Assembly: GCF_001897685.1 (NCBI RefSeq)
Contig: NZ_MKUG01000212.1
Span: 1-42,807, forward strand
DNA: 42,807 nt
Direction: 5' to 3'
Source of the DNA: Thiobacillus sp. 65-1402
Lineage (GTDB): Bacteria; Pseudomonadota; Gammaproteobacteria; Burkholderiales; Thiobacillaceae
Shown here: positions 3,293 to 20,458 of the stretch, one piece after another
Numbering within the stretch: position 1 is the first letter of the stretch
Layout: each line of letters begins with the position of its first letter
Translations under genes and position numbers: made by a program
The notes under the pieces: generated by a model
Databases searched by the model: none
What the model saw: only the letters and a program-made list of their open reading frames with translations
What the model was told of the DNA's origin: nothing

Positions 3293-4879
3293 TTAGCCGC
3301 GCAGCAGCGAGAGCACGTTGTTCGGCAGCGAGTTGGCCTGCGCCAGCATCGCGGTACCGGCCTGCTGCAGGATCTGGCCGCGCGTCAGCGAGGCGGTCTC
3401 GGCGGCGAAGTCGGCATCGATGATGCGGCTGCGCGCGCCCTGCAGGTTCTCGGCGGTCACCTGGATGTTGCCGATGGCGTTCTCGAAGCGGCTCTGCACC
3501 GCGCCCAGGGTGCCGCGCGCGCTGTTCACCGAGTTGATCGCCGCATCCATCGCCTTCATGGCGTTGTTGGCGCCGGCGACGCTGGAAATGTCGAGCGTGG
3601 CGAAGCCGGTCTGGGCGCTGCCGGGCGTGGCGGCGTTGGCGCCCGCGGTCAGGCCGGTCTGCTCGGTCACGTTGCCGGTACCGGCGATGTCGATGTTGCC
3701 GGAGCCGCCGATCGAGGTCAGGGTCAGCGCGCCGCCGGAAACCGATGCCTGGACGCCGGTGGTGCCGGTCTTGGCATTGATCGCGGTGGTCAGGTCGGTC
3801 AGGCGGGTGGCGGCATCGGCAGCGGCGCCGACTTCGATGTTCTCGCCGTTGATGGTGAAGGCCGCGCCGGACAGGGCCGAGAAGGTGCCGGGGGTGGCGG
3901 GGGTGCCGCCGGTTGCCGGGGTGCCGCCGGTGTGGTTGGCGACGAAGCCGGCGCCGAAGGTGCCGTCGGATGTGGTGCCTGCCGCCGCAACTGTCGAGCC
4001 GACGGCGTCGGAGAACGACGTGGTGATGGCCATGTCGGTGCCGTCGGCCTTGGTGATCACCAGGTCGCCGCCGGCGACCGTGCCAGCCAGGGTATAGGCG
4101 CCGCCGCTGGCTGCGACAAAAGCGGCGATGTCGGTTTGCAGGTTGGCGGCGGAGGCATTGCCGACCAAGCGGTCGGAGGCGACCGCGCCGTCGATCTTGA
4201 CCTGGAAGGCGTCGGCGGCATTGTCGGATGCGGCCTGGACATAGGCGCCGGAAACCGCGGAAGCGGTCGGCGTTGCCGGCGTCCCCGGCACGGCGGCGAC
4301 GTAGCCCGCGCCCACCGGTGCGGCGCCGGTAACCGGCGCGGCCGCGGTGTCGACGCTGGTCCAGCTGCCGAGCGCCGAGATCTGGGCGTTGGCGATGCCG
4401 GCGACGTTGATGGTCTCGCCGGCGTTGGCGCCGACCTGGAAGGCTTGCAGGGTGAAGCTGCCGTCGAGCAGTTTCAGGCCGTTGAATTCGGTCTGCTTGG
4501 CGACGCGGTCGATTTCGGACAGCAGCTGGCCGGCCTCGGCGTTGAGCGCCTTGCGGTCGTCGGCGCTGTTGCTGGCGTTGGCGGACTGCACGGACAGTTC
4601 GCGCACCCGCTGCAACATGTCGCCGATCTTGCCGAGCGCGCCTTCGGCGGTCTGCGCCAGCGAAATGCCGTCGTTGGCGTTGCGGGCGGCGACGTTGAGG
4701 CCGCGGATCTGCGACGTCATGCGCTCGGAAATCGCCAGGCCGGCGGCATCGTCCTTGGCGCTGTTCACGCGCAGGCCGGAAGACAGGCGCTGGATCGAGG
4801 TGTTGAGCGCGGACTGCGAGGTACCGAGGTTGCGCTGCGTGTTGAGCGAAGCGATGTTGGTATTGATTACTGCTGCCAT
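3293..4879 (-). CDS. fliC: Flagellin
   Basis: Structural subunit of the flagellar filament, exported by the flagellar type III apparatus. The 528-aa protein has the conserved N-terminal D0/D1 region ([18 protein letters not shown], then [19 protein letters not shown] and the QRVRELSVQ motif around residues 88-96) and the conserved C-terminal D1/D0 region ending [11 protein letters not shown]. The centre (about 165-430) is a Gly/Ala/Thr-rich hypervariable insert with TPAT-containing short repeats. ATG start with AAGGAG 7 nt upstream. It has its own terminator downstream and two FliA-like promoters upstream, which fits a late flagellar gene expressed separately. The QRVREL motif is the one recognised by TLR5 in other species. 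Confidence 0.97.
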
Positions 4880-9555: not shown

Positions 9556-10929
9556 ATGCACACCACCCGCCCTGCCGCCGTTGCGGGATCGTTCTATCCG
9601 GATAACCCCGTCGCGCTCCGGCAAACGCTTGCCGAACTGCTGGCGCATGCCCGGTCGGGCGCGGCGCCGCGAGCGCCCAAGGCCTTGATCGTGCCGCACG
9701 CCGGCTACCTGTATTCCGGCGCCGTCGCCGCCAGCGCCTATGCGCGCCTGGGCGATGGGCGCGGGCGTATTCGCCGGGTGGTGCTGCTCGGCCCCGCCCA
9801 CCGCGTCTACGTGCGCGGGCTGGCGCTGCCCGAGGCGGAGCGCTTTGCCACTCCGCTCGGCGAAATCCTGCTGGATCGCGAGGGCATGCGGCGCCTCGCC
9901 GATCTGCCGCAGGTGGGCGCAAGCGCCGCGGCGCACCGGATGGAGCATTCGCTGGAAGTGCAGCTGCCTTTCCTGCAGCAGGTGCTGGGCGATTTCCTGC
10001 TGCTGCCGCTGGTGGTGGGCGCGGCGACCGCGGCCGAGGTGGCCGAGGTGCTGGAACGGGCATGGGGCGGCGACGAGACGCTGATCGTGGTCAGTTCCGA
10101 CCTGTCGCATTTTCTGCCCGATGCGGCCGCCCGCAAGGCGGACGGCGAGACCGTGGACGCGATCCTGGCGCTGGATACGCAGCTCGATCACGAACAGGCC
10201 TGCGGGGCCACGCCGATCAACGGCCTGCTGCTGGCGGCCAGGAAGCATGGCCTGCATGCGGTCAAGCTGGACGTGCGCAATTCCAGCGACGCCGCCGGCG
10301 ATCCCGAGCGGGTGGTCGGCTATGCCGCCTTCGCGTTCGAGCCCGCAGCCGGCACCGACCGGCCGGATGCGGAAAAAGGCTCGGCCTTGCTGAAGCTGGC
10401 GCGTTCGGAAATTGCCTCCCGGCTGGGGCGGGCGACGGCGAATCCCGTCAAGGCCGCCTGGCTGCAGGAACCGGGCGCGAGCTTCGTCACCCTGACCCGG
10501 CAGGGCGAGTTGCGCGGCTGCATCGGCACCCTGGAAGCGCACCGCCCGCTGGAAATCGACGTGCGCGAGAATGCGGCGGCGGCGGCGTTCCGCGACCCGC
10601 GCTTCATGCCGCTGGGCCGCGACGAGTTCGAGGAAATCCGGGTCGAGGTGTCGCTGCTGTCGCCGGCCGAAACGCTGGCGGTGAGCGATGAAGCCTCGGC
10701 GCTGGCCGCGTTGCGGCCGCACGTCGACGGCGTGGTGTTGGAGTTCCGGCATTTCAGAAGCACTTTCCTGCCGCAGGTATGGGAACAGTTGCCCGAGCCC
10801 GCCGATTTTCTGGCCCAACTCAAGCGCAAGGCCGGGCTGCCCGCGGATTTCTGGTCCGAAAGCGTGCGCCTGGCGCGCTACAGCGTCACGAAGTGGAAGG
10901 AGGAGACGCGACGCCATGAGCATTCCTGA
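9556..10929 (+). CDS. amrB-amrA fusion: Fused AmmeMemoRadiSam proteins B and A (MEMO1-like + AMMECR1)
   Basis: One 457-aa cytoplasmic polypeptide that joins two proteins usually encoded apart. Residues 1 to about 265 are MEMO-like: H48 (VPHAGYLYSG), H82 (LLGPAHRVY) and C216 (ACGATPINGLL) align in position with the metal ligands H49, H81 and C244 of human MEMO1. Residues about 273-457 are an AMMECR1 domain with its signature LRGCIG at 319-324. The ATG at 9556 has GGAAGGA upstream; an in-frame TTG at 9541 is less likely. The gene overlaps the radical SAM gene by 14 nt. The trio is widely conserved in bacteria and archaea; I know of no firmly established reaction, so the function is left open. 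Confidence 0.92.
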   Translation: MHTTRPAAVAGSFYPDNPVALRQTLAELLAHARSGAAPRAPKALIVPHAGYLYSGAVAASAYARLGDGRGRIRRVVLLGPAHRVYVRGLALPEAERFATPLGEILLDREGMRRLADLPQVGASAAAHRMEHSLEVQLPFLQQVLGDFLLLPLVVGAATAAEVAEVLERAWGGDETLIVVSSDLSHFLPDAAARKADGETVDAILALDTQLDHEQACGATPINGLLLAARKHGLHAVKLDVRNSSDAAGDPERVVGYAAFAFEPAAGTDRPDAEKGSALLKLARSEIASRLGRATANPVKAAWLQEPGASFVTLTRQGELRGCIGTLEAHRPLEIDVRENAAAAAFRDPRFMPLGRDEFEEIRVEVSLLSPAETLAVSDEASALAALRPHVDGVVLEFRHFRSTFLPQVWEQLPEPADFLAQLKRKAGLPADFWSESVRLARYSVTKWKEETRRHEHS

Positions 10930-12010
10930 ATCGCATTACCCCGCGCGCTGGTGGCGCGTGCTGCCGGACGGCCGCATCGAATGCGACCTCTGCCCGCGCT
11001 TCTGCAAGCTGCACGAGGGCCAGCGCGGGCTGTGCTTCGTGCGCAAGATGGAAGGCGGCAAGATGGTGCTCACCACCTACGGCCGCTCGTCCGGTTTCTG
11101 CGTCGATCCCATCGAGAAGAAGCCGCTCAACCACTTCTATCCCGGCAGCTCGGTGTTCTCCTTCGGCACCGCCGGCTGCAATCTGGCCTGCAAGTTCTGC
11201 CAGAACTGGGACATCTCCAAATCGCGCGAGACCGACACGCTGATGGACCGGGCTTCGCCGGACGAGATCGCCGCCGCGGCCGAAAAGAGCGGCTGCAAGA
11301 GCGTGGCCTTCACCTACAACGATCCGGTCATCTTCGCCGAGTACGCGATGGACGTGGCCGACGCCTGCCATGCGCGCGGCCTCAAGACCGTGGCGGTCAC
11401 CGCCGGCTACATCACCGAGGAAGCGCGCCGCGAGTTCTTCGCGAAAATGGACGCGGCCAACGTCGACCTCAAGGCCTTCACCGACGATTTCTACGTCCAG
11501 CTGACCGGCGCCCATCTGCAGCCGGTGCTCGACACGCTGACGTACCTGAAGCGCGAGACGGATACGTGGTTCGAGATCACCACGCTCCTGATCCCCGGCC
11601 ACAACGATTCCGACGCCGAGATCGAGGCGATGAGCCGGTGGATCCTGCGCGAGCTCGGGCCCGACGTGCCGCTGCACTTCTCCGCCTTCCACCCCGACTG
11701 GAAGATGCGCGACGTGCCGCCGACGCCGGCCGCCACGCTGACCCGCGCGCGCGACATCGCGCTGCAGGCCGGTCTGCATTACGCCTATACCGGCAACGTG
11801 CACGACACCACGGGCGGCACCACGTACTGCCCCGGCTGCCATGCGCCGCTGATCGTGCGCGACTGGTATCGCATCGACGATTACAAACTCACCCCCGACG
11901 GCGATTGCCCGCATTGCGGCAGCGCCATCGCCGGCCGTTTCGGCGCGTTCGGCCATCCCTTCGGCAACCGCCGCATCCCGGTCGCCATGCACCGCGAGGA
12001 CCGCGCATGA
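10916..12010 (+). CDS. amrS: AmmeMemoRadiSam system radical SAM enzyme
   Basis: Radical S-adenosylmethionine enzyme of 364 aa. The 4Fe-4S cluster motif CxxxCxxC is C88-C92-C95 in AGCNLACKFCQNW. The N-terminus has four further cysteines (C23, C26, C30, C40 in CDLCPRFC...GLC) and the C-terminus has two CxxC pairs (C305/C308 and C331/C334), arrangements characteristic of this family and related to pyruvate-formate-lyase-activating-type proteins. The ATG overlaps the end of the B-A fusion gene, and the stop overlaps the hydrolase start, indicating coupled translation. Substrate unknown; it presumably modifies something that also meets the MEMO and AMMECR1 domains. Confidence 0.93.
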   Translation: MSIPESHYPARWWRVLPDGRIECDLCPRFCKLHEGQRGLCFVRKMEGGKMVLTTYGRSSGFCVDPIEKKPLNHFYPGSSVFSFGTAGCNLACKFCQNWDISKSRETDTLMDRASPDEIAAAAEKSGCKSVAFTYNDPVIFAEYAMDVADACHARGLKTVAVTAGYITEEARREFFAKMDAANVDLKAFTDDFYVQLTGAHLQPVLDTLTYLKRETDTWFEITTLLIPGHNDSDAEIEAMSRWILRELGPDVPLHFSAFHPDWKMRDVPPTPAATLTRARDIALQAGLHYAYTGNVHDTTGGTTYCPGCHAPLIVRDWYRIDDYKLTPDGDCPHCGSAIAGRFGAFGHPFGNRRIPVAMHREDRA

Positions 12011-12663
12011 GCGCTGCCAGCCTGGTCCGCATCCCGGCCGGCAACGCGACCGTCGACGGCATGCTGGAGATTCCCAACGCCGCCGTCGGGCTGGTGCTGT
12101 TCGCCCACGGCAGCGGCTCGTCGCGCCATTCGCCGCGCAACAACCAGGTGGCCGGCGTGCTGCGGCAGGCCGGCGTCGGCACCCTGTTGATGGATTTGCT
12201 GACGGCAGAAGAAGACCGCGATTATTCGCGGCGCTTCGACATCGCGCTGCTGACCCGACGCCTGCTGCAAGCGGCGCACTGGGCGGTTTCGCAGCCCGCC
12301 GCCCGCGAACTGCCGCTCGGTTTCTTTGGCGCCAGCACCGGCGCCGCCGCTGCGCTCGAAGCCGCCGCCGTTCTGGGCGGCCAGGCGCGCGCCGTGGTCT
12401 CGCGCGGCGGCCGCCCCGATCTGGCGGACCGCGCAGCTCTGGGGAGCGTGACAGCGCCGACCCTGCTGCTGGTGGGCGGCCTCGACGACGGCGTGATCGA
12501 ACTCAACCGGCAGGCCTATGACCAGCTGCAATGCGAAAAGGAACTGGCGATCGTTCCCGGCGCCAGCCACCTGTTCGAGGAGGCCGGCACGCTGGAGGCG
12601 GTGGCGCGCCAGGCCGCAGCCTGGTTCGCGGAGCATCTGCCGGCGCAGCAACGCTCCCGCTAG
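12007..12663 (+). CDS. Alpha/beta hydrolase (dienelactone-hydrolase-like)
   Basis: Cytoplasmic hydrolase of 218 aa with the alpha/beta fold order: oxyanion-side strand LVLFAHGSGSSRHSPRN (29-45), nucleophile elbow GASTG with S110, acid D160 or D161 in GGLDDG, and H188 in GASHLF. The family commonly sits beside or is fused to phosphoribosyltransferases like the one at 19.7-20.3 kb. Its ATG shares the ATGA with the stop of the radical SAM gene, so it is the last gene of that operon. Substrate unknown; whether it works with the AmmeMemoRadiSam proteins is inference from coupling. Confidence 0.85.
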   Translation: MSAASLVRIPAGNATVDGMLEIPNAAVGLVLFAHGSGSSRHSPRNNQVAGVLRQAGVGTLLMDLLTAEEDRDYSRRFDIALLTRRLLQAAHWAVSQPAARELPLGFFGASTGAAAALEAAAVLGGQARAVVSRGGRPDLADRAALGSVTAPTLLLVGGLDDGVIELNRQAYDQLQCEKELAIVPGASHLFEEAGTLEAVARQAAAWFAEHLPAQQRSR

Positions 12664-12816: not shown

Positions 12817-13560
<744 letters not shown>

Positions 13561-13564
13561 CGCC

Positions 13565-16126
<2,562 letters not shown>

Positions 16127-16130
16127 CGGC

Positions 16131-18500
16131 GTGAAGGCCCTCGACCGCAAACTCTTCCGCGATCTGTGGCATCTGCGCGGCCAGGTGCTGGCGATCGCCG
16201 CGGTGATCATGGGCGGCGTCGCCACCATGGCGATGTCGCTCTCGACTTACGATTCGCTGGTCGCTACGCGCGACCGCTTCTATGCTGAATACCGTTTCGC
16301 CGACGTGTTCGAAAGCCTCAAGCGCGCGCCCGAGCCGGTGGCCGAGCGGATCGCCGCGATTCCCGGGGTGGAGCGCATGGAGACGCGGGTGAAGGCCGGA
16401 GTGAAGCTGGAGGTGGCAGGGTTTTCCGATCCCGTCACCGGCCAGCTGCTGTCGCTGCCGGACGTCGGTGCGGCGCAGCTCAACCGGCTGTATCTCAAGC
16501 GCGGACGCAGCGTGCAGCCATGGAGTGCGGACGAGGCGGTGCTGTCCGACACCTTCGCCGACGCCCACGGCCTGCAGCCGGGCGACACCCTCGCCGCGAT
16601 CATCAACGGCAAGCGCAAGCGGCTCACCGTGGTCGGCGTCGCGGTGTCGCCGGAATACGTCTACCAGATCGCGCCCGGCGCCATGTTCCCCGACTTCAAG
16701 CGCTACGGCGTGCTGTGGATGGGACGCAGCGCGCTCGCCGCCGCCTACGACATGGAGGGCGCGTTCAACCAGGTCAGCCTGACGCTGGCGCGCGATGCCC
16801 GCGAACAGGACGTGATCGACCGCGTCGATGCCATCCTGGCGGACTACGGCGGCACCGGCGCCTACGGCCGCCGCGACCAGTTCTCCAACCGTTTCCTGCG
16901 CGAGGAGCTGAAGCAGCTGCGCACCATGGCCGTCGTGTTCCCGGCCATTTTCCTCGGCGTCGCCGCCTTCCTGCTCAACGTGGTGCTGGGCCGGCTGATC
17001 GCGCTGCAGCGCGATCAGATCGCCATCCTCAAGGCCTTCGGCTACGGCTATGCGGCGATCGGCGGCCACTTCGTCAAGCTGGTGCTCATGATGGCGCTGC
17101 TCGGCGTGGCGGCGGGGGTGGCGCTCGGCGCCTGGTTCGGCCAGGGGCTGTCGCACGTCTACACCGAAACGACGTTCCGCTTTCCCTATCTCGACTACCG
17201 GCTCAATGCCGGGGTGATTCTGATCGCTCTGGGGGTCAGCTGCCTGGCGGCGGTCAGCGGCACGCTGCTCTCGGTGGTGCGCGCGGTGCGGCTGCCGCCG
17301 GCCGAGGGCATGCGTCCGGAAATGCCGGTGGCCTACCGTACCTCGCTGGTCGAGCGCATCGGCCCTGCGCGCTGGCTTGCCGCGCCGACGCGCATGGTGC
17401 TGCGCCACATCGGGCGCCATCCGCTGAAGTCGCTGCTGACCGTGCTCGGCATCGCCTGCGCCTGCGGTCTGATGATGGTGGGCAACTACCAGAAGGGCGC
17501 GATCGATTTCATGGTCGACGTGCAGTTCCGCCAGGCCTCGCGCGAGGATCTGGCGCTCTCCTTCATCGAGCCGACTTCCGGCCGTGCGCTGCACGAGCTG
17601 GCGGCGCTGCCGGGCGTCGATTTCGTCGAGGGTTTTCGCGACGTGCCGGCGATCCTGCGCTTCGGGCAGTACCGTCACCGCGGCGCGATCTTCGGCATCC
17701 AGCCCGAGGGCCAGCTGCACCGCTCGCTCGACCGCAAGCTGCAGCCGGTGGCGGTGCCGCCGGGCGGCGTGGTGCTCACCGACCACCTGGCCAACGCGAT
17801 CCTGCACGTCAAGCCGGGCGACCTGCTGACGGTGGAAATCCTCGAAGGCAGCCGCCCGGTGCGGCAGGTGCCGGTGCTCGGCATCACCAGACAGTTTCTC
17901 GGGGTGTCGGCCTACATGCAGCAGGATTCGTTGAATGCCCTGATGCGCGAGGGCGGCGCGGTGTCGGGCGCCTATCTGGCGGTGCGGCCCGGCAGCGAGG
18001 CCGAACTCTACGCAAAGCTGCACGCGCGCCCGCGCGTGCTCGGCATGGTCGCCAACCGGGCGGCGATCCAGAGCTTCTACGCCACCATCGGCGAGTTCAT
18101 CCTGTTCTACAACCTGGTGGCGACCCTGCTGGCCGGCGCCATCGGCTTCGGCGTGGTCTACAACAGCGCGCGCATCGGCCTTTCCGAGCGCGGCCGCGAG
18201 CTTGCCAGCCTGCGCGTGCTGGGCTTCACCCGCGGCGAGATCGCCTATATCCTGCTGGGGGAACTGGCGCTGCTGACGCTGGCGGCGATTCCGGCCGGCT
18301 TCGTGGTCGGCATCGGCCTGGTCGGCATCCTGGTGGTGGCGTTCCAGAGCGAGCTGTACCGGCTGCCGCTGATCCTGACGCCGGAAAACTATGCCATGGG
18401 CGCTTCCGTCGTCATCGTCTCCGCGCTGCTGTCCGGGCTGCTGCTGTGGCATCGCCTCGGCCGGCTCGATCTGGTGGCGGTATTGAAAACTCGCGAATAG
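16131..18500 (+). CDS. ABC transporter permease with two FtsX domains
   Basis: Inner-membrane permease of 789 aa. A first transmembrane helix (about 13-33) is followed by a periplasmic domain, then three helices (about 263-400) forming FtsX domain 1, a further helix near 430-450, a second periplasmic domain, and three helices (about 660-785) forming FtsX domain 2. This duplicated layout is that of MacB/LolC-related permeases with two FtsX units in one chain. Start is GTG at 16131, 4 nt after the P-type ATPase stop. It should pair with the ATPase at 12817 and the adaptor at 18515. The substrate is unknown. Confidence 0.9.
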   Translation: MKALDRKLFRDLWHLRGQVLAIAAVIMGGVATMAMSLSTYDSLVATRDRFYAEYRFADVFESLKRAPEPVAERIAAIPGVERMETRVKAGVKLEVAGFSDPVTGQLLSLPDVGAAQLNRLYLKRGRSVQPWSADEAVLSDTFADAHGLQPGDTLAAIINGKRKRLTVVGVAVSPEYVYQIAPGAMFPDFKRYGVLWMGRSALAAAYDMEGAFNQVSLTLARDAREQDVIDRVDAILADYGGTGAYGRRDQFSNRFLREELKQLRTMAVVFPAIFLGVAAFLLNVVLGRLIALQRDQIAILKAFGYGYAAIGGHFVKLVLMMALLGVAAGVALGAWFGQGLSHVYTETTFRFPYLDYRLNAGVILIALGVSCLAAVSGTLLSVVRAVRLPPAEGMRPEMPVAYRTSLVERIGPARWLAAPTRMVLRHIGRHPLKSLLTVLGIACACGLMMVGNYQKGAIDFMVDVQFRQASREDLALSFIEPTSGRALHELAALPGVDFVEGFRDVPAILRFGQYRHRGAIFGIQPEGQLHRSLDRKLQPVAVPPGGVVLTDHLANAILHVKPGDLLTVEILEGSRPVRQVPVLGITRQFLGVSAYMQQDSLNALMREGGAVSGAYLAVRPGSEAELYAKLHARPRVLGMVANRAAIQSFYATIGEFILFYNLVATLLAGAIGFGVVYNSARIGLSERGRELASLRVLGFTRGEIAYILLGELALLTLAAIPAGFVVGIGLVGILVVAFQSELYRLPLILTPENYAMGASVVIVSALLSGLLLWHRLGRLDLVAVLKTRE

Positions 18501-18514
18501 GGCAACGGGGAAAC

Positions 18515-19708
18515 ATGCGGCTGCGCGCAAAAATCGGAATGCTGGCAACCGCTGCCGTGGTGGTGGCGGGGCTGGCCTACGGTTTCATGCCGCGCGCCGT
18601 GCTGGTCGACCTCGCCGAAGTGAAGCGCGCGCCGCTCGCGGTGACGGTGGAGGAGGAGGGCAAGACGCGGGTGCGCGAGCGCTACACCGTGTCGGCGCCG
18701 GTGGCGGGTTTTGTGCGCCGCATCGGCCTCAAGGCCGGCGACGCCGTCGCCGCCGGGCAGGCGATCGCGGTGATCGAACCGGCGCGTGCGGCGGCGCTCG
18801 ATCCGCGCGCCCGCGCCCAGGCGCAGGCGCAGGCGAGCGCCGCCCAGGCCGCGCTCGCCGCGGCGCAGGAAAACGTCCGCGCCGCCCGCGCTGCGGCGCA
18901 GCTGACGCAGCAGGAGCGCGCCCGCGCCGAATCGCTGCGGCAATCGAATTTCCTCTCCGCCCAGGCGCTCGACGCCGCGCGCACCGCGGAAACCCGCGCC
19001 CGCGCCGCCGAAGCCGCTGCGCAGCATGCGGTGCGAGTGGCGCACTTCGACCTGGCGACCGCGCGTGCGGCCGTCGCCGGCACCGCCCGTCTGCAGGCCG
19101 GCGGCACGGCCGAGCAGGTGCAGGTGCGGGCGCCGGTCGCCGCCCACGTATTGAAGCTGCTGCACGAAAGCGAGGGCGCGGTGGCAACCGGCCAACCGCT
19201 GCTCGAAATCGGCGACCCCGCCAGCCTGGAAGTCGAGGTCGAGGTGCTGTCCGCCCACGCGGTGAAGATCGCGCCCGGCTCGAAAGTCATCCTCGACCGC
19301 TGGGGCGGCGAGCGGCCGCTCGAAGGCCGCGTGCGGGTGGTCGAGCCGAGCGGCTTCACCAAGATTTCAGCGCTCGGCGTCGAGGAGCAGCGGGTGCGCG
19401 TCATCGTCGATTTCAGTTCGCCGCGCGAGGCGTGGGCGCGGCTCGGCGACGGCTACCGGGTGGAGGCGCGCTTCGTGCTGTGGGAAGGCCGGGACGTGCT
19501 GCAGCTGCCGACCAGCGCGCTGTTCCGGCAGGGCGAGGGCTGGGCGGCGTTCGTGCTGGACGGCCGCCGCGCGCGCCTGGTGCCGGTCGGGATCGGTCAG
19601 CGCGCCGGGCTCGCCACCCAGGTGGCGGCAGGACTCAAGGCCGGCGACCGGGTGGTGGCGCACCCCGACGAGACGATCAAGGACGGCGTGCGGGTGAAGC
19701 CGCGCTAG
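18515..19708 (+). CDS. HlyD/MacA-type periplasmic adaptor protein
   Basis: Membrane-fusion protein of 397 aa. It has one N-terminal membrane anchor (about 5-25), a lipoyl-like half (about 50-90), a long Ala/Gln-rich coiled-coil hairpin (about 95-190), the second lipoyl half with VRAPVAAHVLKL, and beta-barrel and membrane-proximal domains to the end. Such adaptors bridge an inner-membrane pump and an outer-membrane channel; no outer-membrane factor gene is in this window, so TolC-like partner would be elsewhere. ATG start 14 nt after the permease with GGGGAAAC upstream. The last 32 nt overlap the convergent phosphoribosyltransferase gene. Confidence 0.9.
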   Translation: MRLRAKIGMLATAAVVVAGLAYGFMPRAVLVDLAEVKRAPLAVTVEEEGKTRVRERYTVSAPVAGFVRRIGLKAGDAVAAGQAIAVIEPARAAALDPRARAQAQAQASAAQAALAAAQENVRAARAAAQLTQQERARAESLRQSNFLSAQALDAARTAETRARAAEAAAQHAVRVAHFDLATARAAVAGTARLQAGGTAEQVQVRAPVAAHVLKLLHESEGAVATGQPLLEIGDPASLEVEVEVLSAHAVKIAPGSKVILDRWGGERPLEGRVRVVEPSGFTKISALGVEEQRVRVIVDFSSPREAWARLGDGYRVEARFVLWEGRDVLQLPTSALFRQGEGWAAFVLDGRRARLVPVGIGQRAGLATQVAAGLKAGDRVVAHPDETIKDGVRVKPR

Positions 19709-20333
19709 CTGTGGCCTGCTTCAAAATCGCTTCGACCTCCGCATCCTCGACCTGCGGGAAATCCGCATAGAACTGCCCCACTGCCTGGAACTGCATCGGC
19801 GTCGACAGGCACACCACCTCGTCGGCGTAGGAGCGGATCTTCTCCAGCGTGTCCGGCGGCGCCACCGGCACCGCGCAGATCAGCTTTGCCGGCTGCTGCG
19901 CGCGCAGCGCATGCAGCGCGGAAATCATCGTTGCCCCGGTGGCCAGTCCGTCGTCGATCACGATGACGGTGCGCCCGGCCGGGTCGATCGGCGGCCTGAG
20001 CGGGGTGTACTGCGCGCGCCGTTTTCTGATGGTGTCGAGCTGGGCCTGCTTTTCCCGGGCCAGGTAGGCCGGCGTGCCGCCGACGGATTCGGCGTAGTCG
20101 GCAATGTAGCTCCAGCCCGACTCGTCGATCGAGCCGATGGCGAATTCCGGATTGAACGGCGCGCGCAGCTTGCGCACCAGCACCACATCGAGTTCGCCGT
20201 CCAGCGCCTGGGCCAGCCGCAGTCCCATCGGCACCGCGCCGCGCGGGATGGCGAGGATCAGCGGATGCCGGCCCTGGTAGGCCTGCAGGGCGTCAGCGAG
20301 CCGGTCGGCAGCCTGGTGGCGATTGGCGAACAT
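19677..20333 (-). CDS. Phosphoribosyltransferase-family protein
   Basis: Cytoplasmic type I phosphoribosyltransferase fold, 218 aa. The PRPP loop is DDGLATGAT at 127-135 after the strand VIVI, and the N-terminus has the LILAIPRGAVPMG segment (about 26-37) of the branch that co-occurs with dienelactone-hydrolase-like proteins. The substrate base is unknown. The ATG at 20333 has GGAGG 8 nt upstream; a longer frame to 20441 would read through AT-rich promoter-like DNA and is rejected. It is divergent from the toxin-antitoxin pair and converges on the adaptor gene with a 32-nt overlap. Confidence 0.87.
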   Translation of the reverse strand: MFANRHQAADRLADALQAYQGRHPLILAIPRGAVPMGLRLAQALDGELDVVLVRKLRAPFNPEFAIGSIDESGWSYIADYAESVGGTPAYLAREKQAQLDTIRKRRAQYTPLRPPIDPAGRTVIVIDDGLATGATMISALHALRAQQPAKLICAVPVAPPDTLEKIRSYADEVVCLSTPMQFQAVGQFYADFPQVEDAEVEAILKQATASAASPARRP

Positions 20334-20415
20334 GATGAAATCCTCCATTTGCATTTTGATCTTAGGTAGGCAGGCGTCAATCGTGACGAAGTGTGGGTCA
20401 GGCAGGAAAAATAAA

Positions 20416-20458
20416 TTGTGCAAAATAAACAAATACTGCATAAAATGCTCAATATAAA
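20416..20458 (+). promoter_or_regulatory. Promoter/operator region of the Xre-RES operon
   Basis: A1-T-rich island in GC-rich DNA upstream of the antitoxin. It contains TTGTGC (20416), a 17-nt spacer and CATAAA, a further TATAAA at 20453-20458, and the 11-nt palindrome GCATAAAATGC (20438-20448). Xre-type antitoxins usually repress their own operon by binding such repeats, so this is the likely operator. The exact promoter boxes are tentative. Confidence 0.45.

Follow-up and report, generated by a model that had tools for sequence, protein, structure and literature searches.

A hydrolase-fold protein encoded with the AmmeMemoRadiSam trio in Thiobacillus: a putative accessory subunit

The operon and its proteins

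The AmmeMemoRadiSam system comprises an AMMECR1 protein, a MEMO protein and a radical S-adenosylmethionine (SAM) enzyme, for which PMC9062700 uses the gene names amrA, amrB and amrS. In Thiobacillus sp. 65-1402, the window (the whole stretch of DNA that was analyzed, 42,807 nucleotides of contig NZ_MKUG01000212.1) carries this trio in two overlapping genes, directly followed by a fourth gene encoding an alpha/beta hydrolase-fold protein. The fourth protein is the subject of this analysis, and the favored reading, to which we give a probability of about 45%, is that it is a putative accessory or substrate-handling subunit whose hydrolysis is dispensable for the reaction of the trio. The genes in question, together with a phosphoribosyltransferase gene located further downstream, are the following:

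9556..10929, plus strand: amrB-amrA fusion (MEMO-AMMECR1), 457 aa, ATG at 9556, stop ending at 10929
10916..12010, plus strand: amrS, AmmeMemoRadiSam radical SAM enzyme, 364 aa, ATG at 10916, stop ending at 12010
12007..12663, plus strand: alpha/beta hydrolase-fold protein, 218 aa, ATG at 12007, stop ending at 12663
19677..20441, minus strand: phosphoribosyltransferase (PF00156), Pfam score 78.1 bits

The fusion gene overlaps amrS by 14 nt (10916-10929) and amrS overlaps the hydrolase gene by 4 nt (12007-12010); the coordinates and overlaps that an earlier note on this DNA had given for all three genes were borne out. Congeneric genomes keep the gene order (11 loci compared, the window's own included, with L002 matched in part only and L015 in two pieces) at amino-acid identities of 72–82% for the fusion, 85–91% for the radical SAM protein and 75–82% for the hydrolase, and because the order is conserved at such identities the arrangement is not due to chance. 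The three best named relatives of the window's radical SAM protein are Thiobacillus metagenome-assembled genomes, at 88–91% identity. A site scan found no promoter-like site and two terminator-like sites, both on the minus strand, against 2.3 expected from shuffling. A two-component gene pair lies upstream of the operon, and flagellin-like genes, named by reading their translations, occupy 3293-4879 on the minus strand, also upstream.

The hydrolase-fold protein has two Pfam matches just under the cut-off (26 and 22.9 bits, each against 27). The structure 2o2g matches it at an E value of 5e-62 in phmmer, and its predicted model, with a predicted local distance difference test score (pLDDT) of 95.6, resembles 2o2g with a template modeling (TM) score of 0.92 and 55% identity in Foldseek. 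Both the fold and the catalytic triad of a serine alpha/beta hydrolase are present, the latter as S110-D160-H188, assigned by position and motif. Identity with the N-acyl-homoserine lactonase UilS was rejected, the score being 22.1 bits against a cut-off of 400.

The MEMO and AMMECR1 parts were correctly described earlier as one protein, since both domain families match within the single 457-aa open reading frame. PF01875 (Memo) covers residues 7-258 with 173.3 bits (cut-off 27) and PF01871 (AMMECR1) residues 279-446 with 154.5 bits (cut-off 25), and these were the only matches in a Pfam scan at E values up to 0.001. The fusion also exceeds the cut-offs for system protein B (TIGR04336; 260.2 bits, cut-off 26) and system protein A (TIGR04335; 194.7 bits, cut-off 99), and its PDB matches are 7kq8 (MEMO1) and 1wsc (AMMECR1-type). 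Residues H48 and H82 align with the iron ligands H49 and H81 of human MEMO1 in a significant phmmer alignment, and the pairing of C216 with MEMO1 C244 falls in another segment of that match, which is not significant; H49, H81 and C244 are the metal ligands of MEMO1 according to PMC11081632. The signature LRGCIG of AMMECR1 begins at residue 319. A LigB-type extradiol dioxygenase, with its His-His-Glu iron site, was considered and rejected, as the third position is Cys and there is no dioxygenase Pfam match.

AmrS scores 642.9 bits against TIGR04337, with a cut-off of 220, and carries the CxxxCxxC motif at residues 88-95 (CNLACKFC at 88). A motif check found this motif, LRGCIG, H48, H82 and C216 all present, in agreement with the earlier description of them as intact. 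Further cysteines are found at positions 23, 26, 30, 40, 62, 127, 151, 305, 308, 331 and 334; with the exception of C127, the AmrS cysteines are invariant across an eight-sequence alignment, and the extra ones at both ends may bind further clusters or zinc. Among solved structures, 3c8f and 8fo0 are the best sequence matches. Identity with PflA, a glycyl-radical enzyme activase, was rejected at 65.2 bits, far under the PFLA cut-off of 231.75.

Distribution of the fourth gene and loss of catalytic residues

The association of the hydrolase gene with the trio was surveyed at several taxonomic levels. A sample of 170 genomes of the window's order, in which near-identical genomes were kept, contains the radical SAM gene over cut-off in 75 and a strong hydrolase match (E below 1e-50) in 31. 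Both genes occur in 25, and in 20 of these, spread over 10 families, the hydrolase is directly downstream, meaning that the two matches share a strand and the hydrolase match starts no more than 227 nt past the radical SAM match; the five exceptions are G527, G517, G343, G511 and G449, and six order genomes have the hydrolase without the trio radical SAM gene. Within the family (61 genomes), 20 have a strong hydrolase, directly downstream of the radical SAM gene in 16, which comprise 9/9 of the window's genus and 7/8 of genus g285 (one being split by contig ends); three in g291 have it elsewhere. A first sample of the genus placed it after the radical SAM gene in 10 of 11 loci, the window's own included, and found it absent there in L005. 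Furthermore, a hydrolase homologue lies within 370 nt downstream in 34 of 80 named loci, these being the best 80 of 589 and leaning to close relatives. The 34 include Thiobacillus, Nitrosomonas, Gallionella, Ferrigenium, Methylotenera and Sulfuricella, as well as Hylemonella, Zoogloea, Accumulibacter, Propionivibrio and Cognatazoarcus.

The GTDB class Gammaproteobacteria includes the betaproteobacteria. Across this class, 81 regions were collected, mostly one per family from the listed genomes and mostly with about 9 kb fetched on each side, some being short (L231 and L232, about 3 kb). Only three of them, the window included, have the hydrolase within about 9 kb of the radical SAM gene, and L126 and L128 were first fetched because the hydrolase was near; G250, the only further genome listed from the family to which L128 belongs, carries the hydrolase and radical SAM genes some 245 kb from each other. 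The class sample is blind to the link because only G343, G127 and G244 are listed from the window's order besides its own genome. A restriction to two genera, which the family, genus and class samples had indicated, was overturned by the named scan and the order sample. Betaproteobacteria share the hydrolase-trio link widely, and the remainder of the class mostly lacks it; the adjacency on which the earlier note drew is accordingly not confined to a few close relatives, though it is rare outside the order.

At four loci, all with the fused type of trio, a major facilitator superfamily (MFS) transporter-like gene replaces the hydrolase behind amrS: L276, L287, L328 (4-nt overlap) and L311 (+25 nt), with PF07690 shown for L276 only. 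This suggests a small transported compound.

The favored reading draws in part on homologues that have remained in the operon after losing catalytic residues. The catalytic histidine (H188 position) is lost in 11 of the 34 trio-adjacent homologues, namely L292, L297, L318, L322, L323, L326, L329, L331, L333, L335 and L338. The glycine of the HG motif is also lost in all 11 and S110 in 10 (kept in L318 only), and D160 is kept throughout, so the serine and histidine that together mark a serine alpha/beta hydrolase are not both present in any of these proteins. They belong to Zoogloea (2), Accumulibacter (2), Propionivibrio and Cognatazoarcus, with five others recorded as proteobacteria or betaproteobacteria. 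In the hydrolase tree, whose root serves display only and which omits L265 (contig ends truncate both L265 and L266), a branch with 100/99 support sets the 11 apart from the rest; the tree program flagged their branches as long. The hydrolases away from the trio used in the triad comparison and the tree were chosen by the HGSG motif, and thus cannot show its loss there.

These degenerate genes are under purifying selection in four pairs, unlike decaying genes. Their ratios of nonsynonymous to synonymous substitution rates (Ka/Ks) are 0.23, 0.42, 0.19 and 0.41, and those of three pairs of triad-bearing Thiobacillus genes are 0.36, 0.35 and 0.25. Six of the 11 (L322, L323, L329, L331, L333 and L338) have a 4-nt overlap with the radical SAM gene when start codons are assigned mechanically as the earliest start. 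The predicted model of the degenerate L323 protein, built with 11 sequences, has a pLDDT of 88.4, and its closest structure is still 2o2g (TM 0.86). A profile of the degenerate type, run on the 170 order genomes, found one more match beside a radical SAM gene, in G545, a genome in which searching for intact-type hydrolases revealed no second copy; the profile also gave a 94-bit match in G467, on a contig other than that of the radical SAM gene. In the class-wide hydrolase search nothing scored between 210 and 30 bits, except two pieces of one G243 gene (182 and 69 bits). Retention after the loss of catalytic residues suggests that the product is a partner protein and not an ester-cutting enzyme.

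This bears directly on the earlier proposal, drawn from the hydrolase, of an ester or thioester as product or substrate. Developed into a four-enzyme pathway in which the trio would produce or use up an ester, lactone or thioester that the hydrolase cleaves, that proposal draws on the Ser-Asp-His triad of the window protein, its esterase-like fold and an operon position kept in 10 families. It is weakened because 11 of the 34 trio-adjacent homologues have lost catalytic residues without leaving the operon, and Ka/Ks in the four pairs is far under 1; moreover, 55 of the 75 order genomes with the radical SAM gene have no intact-type hydrolase beside it, and away from the trio the usual neighbor of the hydrolase is a phosphoribosyltransferase. 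The implication is not supported as stated, and an ester-cleaving step within the pathway is unlikely.

Gene neighborhoods and alternative readings

Away from the trio, the hydrolase is usually paired with a phosphoribosyltransferase. Among 29 such class loci, the best-scoring of 42 strong hydrolase matches other than the window's, a phosphoribosyltransferase gene lies within 1.5 kb of the hydrolase in 21, a gene resembling phosphoribosyl pyrophosphate (PRPP) synthetase is near in four, and a gene without a Pfam match in eight. Within the order, 20 loci with 1.5-kb flanks show the phosphoribosyltransferase near 5/14 trio-adjacent triad-type hydrolases, 0/1 degenerate ones and 3/5 located away from the trio. 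Of the 80 named loci, two were dropped for lack of downstream sequence, and a comparison over 7 kb used those with at least 6.7 kb downstream. There, a phosphoribosyltransferase follows within 7 kb at 8 of 13 loci with a triad-keeping hydrolase, at none of the 11 degenerate ones and at 1 of 27 without a hydrolase. Because 0/11 degenerate loci have it near as against 8/13 triad-keeping ones (Fisher p 0.002), it is the phosphoribosyltransferase, rather than the trio, with which the catalysis of the hydrolase seems to be connected.

The trio and hydrolase are followed by the phosphoribosyltransferase on the opposite strand in g285 and in several further betaproteobacteria. The window's copy is likewise convergent with the operon, with ABC-transporter and P-type ATPase genes in between; in the window and the six other congeneric genomes fetched with wide flanks (L257-L262) it lies 4–7 kb beyond the hydrolase with other genes between, and in the congener L010 it is inside the 1.5-kb flank. 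The intervening stretch of the window, 12817-19708, holds genes for an ABC ATPase and a magnesium-type P-type ATPase (TIGR01524), together with ABC permease-like and HlyD-like genes named from their translations. In the simplest history, the hydrolase would have arrived with its phosphoribosyltransferase partner and then been taken into the trio operon.

The same neighborhood could be read without any shared function, the hydrolase and phosphoribosyltransferase having come to lie behind the trio in some ancestral betaproteobacterium and being merely co-transcribed with it. The occurrence of hydrolase-phosphoribosyltransferase pairs elsewhere without the trio, the convergent phosphoribosyltransferase that adjoins the hydrolase in many betaproteobacteria, and the confinement of the adjacency largely to one order all agree with such a history. 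Against it, the degenerate hydrolases have kept their place in operons where the 7 kb downstream contain no phosphoribosyltransferase, and six of these genes share a 4-nt overlap with amrS; in addition, two genomes (G501 and G581) have two hydrolase copies, one of them kept behind amrS. Mere co-transcription is, on this evidence, improbable.

Archease and RtcB genes are further neighbors in a few families. Five of seven fetched g285 genomes (L145, L147, L148, L251 and L252) have the trio, hydrolase, phosphoribosyltransferase, archease and RtcB together, although RtcB is cut by a contig end in L148 and L251 contains an 8-kb gap; the two exceptions are L146, whose surroundings lack archease and RtcB, and G436, which is distributed over separate contigs. 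Another family shows the same five-component grouping in two genomes (L126 and L250), and in L247 archease and RtcB are arranged tail-to-tail relative to the trio. L245, from a third family, has a tandem array of RtcB, archease and the radical SAM gene, and L246, from a fourth, has archease and RtcB within 5 kb of the radical SAM gene. At the tandem locus L193/L245 (G053), MEMO and AMMECR1 were not found nearby. A general link of the trio to RtcB and archease was rejected, since either gene is near the radical SAM gene in only 2 of the 81 regions and the 80 named loci, of which many have short flanks, contain no full-length gene, their sole RtcB-like match being one of 96 bits in L302. These neighbors are a lead towards RNA or nucleotide chemistry in a few families, not a rule. 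Flagellar- or chemotaxis-like genes, as judged from translations, are found near the radical SAM gene in 13–16 of the 81 regions (e.g., L167, L184, L198 and L224), and this recurrence is taken as a shared chromosomal position.

A maintenance module for RNA ends or nucleotides, in which the trio would act ahead of RtcB ligation or following it, to repair or modify a base or an RNA end, is the least probable of the readings weighed here: the five-component clusters in g285 and the second family, the L245 and L246 arrangements and the cooperation of archease with RtcB (PMC3973293) are set against the two g285 exceptions, the rarity of these genes among the 81 regions and the named loci, and the location of archease and RtcB on another contig (L243) in the window's own genome.

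The favored reading of an accessory subunit would work as follows. AmrS would cleave SAM reductively to give a 5'-deoxyadenosyl radical, as expected from family knowledge, and MEMO, presumed to hold Fe(II) in its His2Cys site, would act in sequence with AmrS on one common substrate. AMMECR1, fixed beside MEMO by the fusion, may contribute to the same active complex by holding or shaping the substrate, and the hydrolase-fold protein would join the trio as an accessory or substrate-handling subunit. Since the hydrolase was probably recruited from its pairing with a phosphoribosyltransferase, any retained catalytic activity, as in the window, would more likely serve that enzyme, in ribosyl or nucleotide-type metabolism. 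A more specific version is doubtful: that the fourth subunit is a pseudoenzyme serving as a binding platform in the Zoogloea/Propionivibrio/Accumulibacter clade, that its ancestral neighborhood contained the phosphoribosyltransferase (with archease and RtcB in some families), and that the trio acts on a nucleotide, ribosylated compound or RNA end.

Several observations weigh against an accessory role. The 11 degenerate proteins form one long-branched clade and perhaps reflect a single event, and the contrast of 8/13 with 0/11 takes no account of relatedness. In the window, the hydrolase retains its triad and, judging from its residues, may well be catalytic here. In addition, the fourth gene is optional, because 55 of the 75 order genomes with the radical SAM gene lack an adjoining intact-type hydrolase (one of these, G545, has the degenerate type there), and outside the order the link is rare, as the class-wide regions indicate.

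Significance and comparison with known systems

The MEMO-AMMECR1 fusion recurs elsewhere and is of an already known kind. Of the 81 class regions, 58 have MEMO and AMMECR1 as separate genes, 4 have them fused, 3 have MEMO only and 2 AMMECR1 only; the parts of the trio often live apart, because 14 regions show neither MEMO nor AMMECR1 near amrS. The 80 named loci, where some incomplete trios are due to contig ends, are divided into 19 fused, 53 separate, 3 with AMMECR1 only, 1 with MEMO only and 4 with neither. The fused form dominates in the window's genus (16 of 18 loci, own included, the other two being separate). In Ideonella and Segatella records, a match covering both domains in one piece carries the annotation amrB; these fusion-type amrB genes are on large plasmids (NZ_CP088082.1 and NZ_CP137560.1, Ideonella dechloratans and Segatella hominis).

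The earlier note had regarded the operon as a candidate for an undescribed pathway. This stands only in part: the trio is already a named system, and no settled reaction for it was found in the literature searched. The trio and the fusion are known, and the coupled fourth hydrolase-fold gene and its putative pseudoenzyme form appear to be the new part. Neither of these was found in the literature search or in the accessible parts of PMC7159879, PMC11081632, PMC9062700, PMC9861516 and PMC3973293, a coverage that mostly leaves out subscription papers. A link between the trio, hydrolase, phosphoribosyltransferase and RtcB was likewise not found among the papers listed.

MEMO and AMMECR1 are conserved from bacteria to humans, and with no settled reaction in the literature searched, the fourth protein provides a concrete handle on the system. 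Its natural catalytic-looking and non-catalytic versions can separate binding from hydrolysis. Furthermore, the recurrent phosphoribosyltransferase and the occasional archease-RtcB neighbors narrow the search for a substrate to nucleotide, ribosyl or RNA compounds. Burroughs et al., writing in JBC in 2019, are said to have read the contexts of Memo as pointing to the modification of nucleotide bases and isoprenoids.

Compared with the AmmeMemoRadiSam system as defined by TIGR04335, TIGR04336 and TIGR04337, the window has all three parts over cut-off, adjacent and overlapping, but it fuses A and B and couples a fourth, hydrolase-fold gene. Human MEMO1 (7kq8/7l5c), an iron- and copper-binding protein for which PMC11081632 reports no dioxygenase activity with the substrates tried, is related in sequence and has the same His-His-Cys ligands as the window's MEMO, whereas the latter is fused to AMMECR1 and lies in an operon.

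AMMECR1 is present in humans as well. PflA has the radical SAM core in common with AmrS, which differs from it by extra N- and C-terminal Cys motifs. The archease-RtcB operon is near or next to the trio in few families and away from the radical SAM gene in most regions examined. Finally, 2O2G, a structural genomics entry from Anabaena variabilis labeled "dienelactone hydrolase", has a fold like that of the window hydrolase model.

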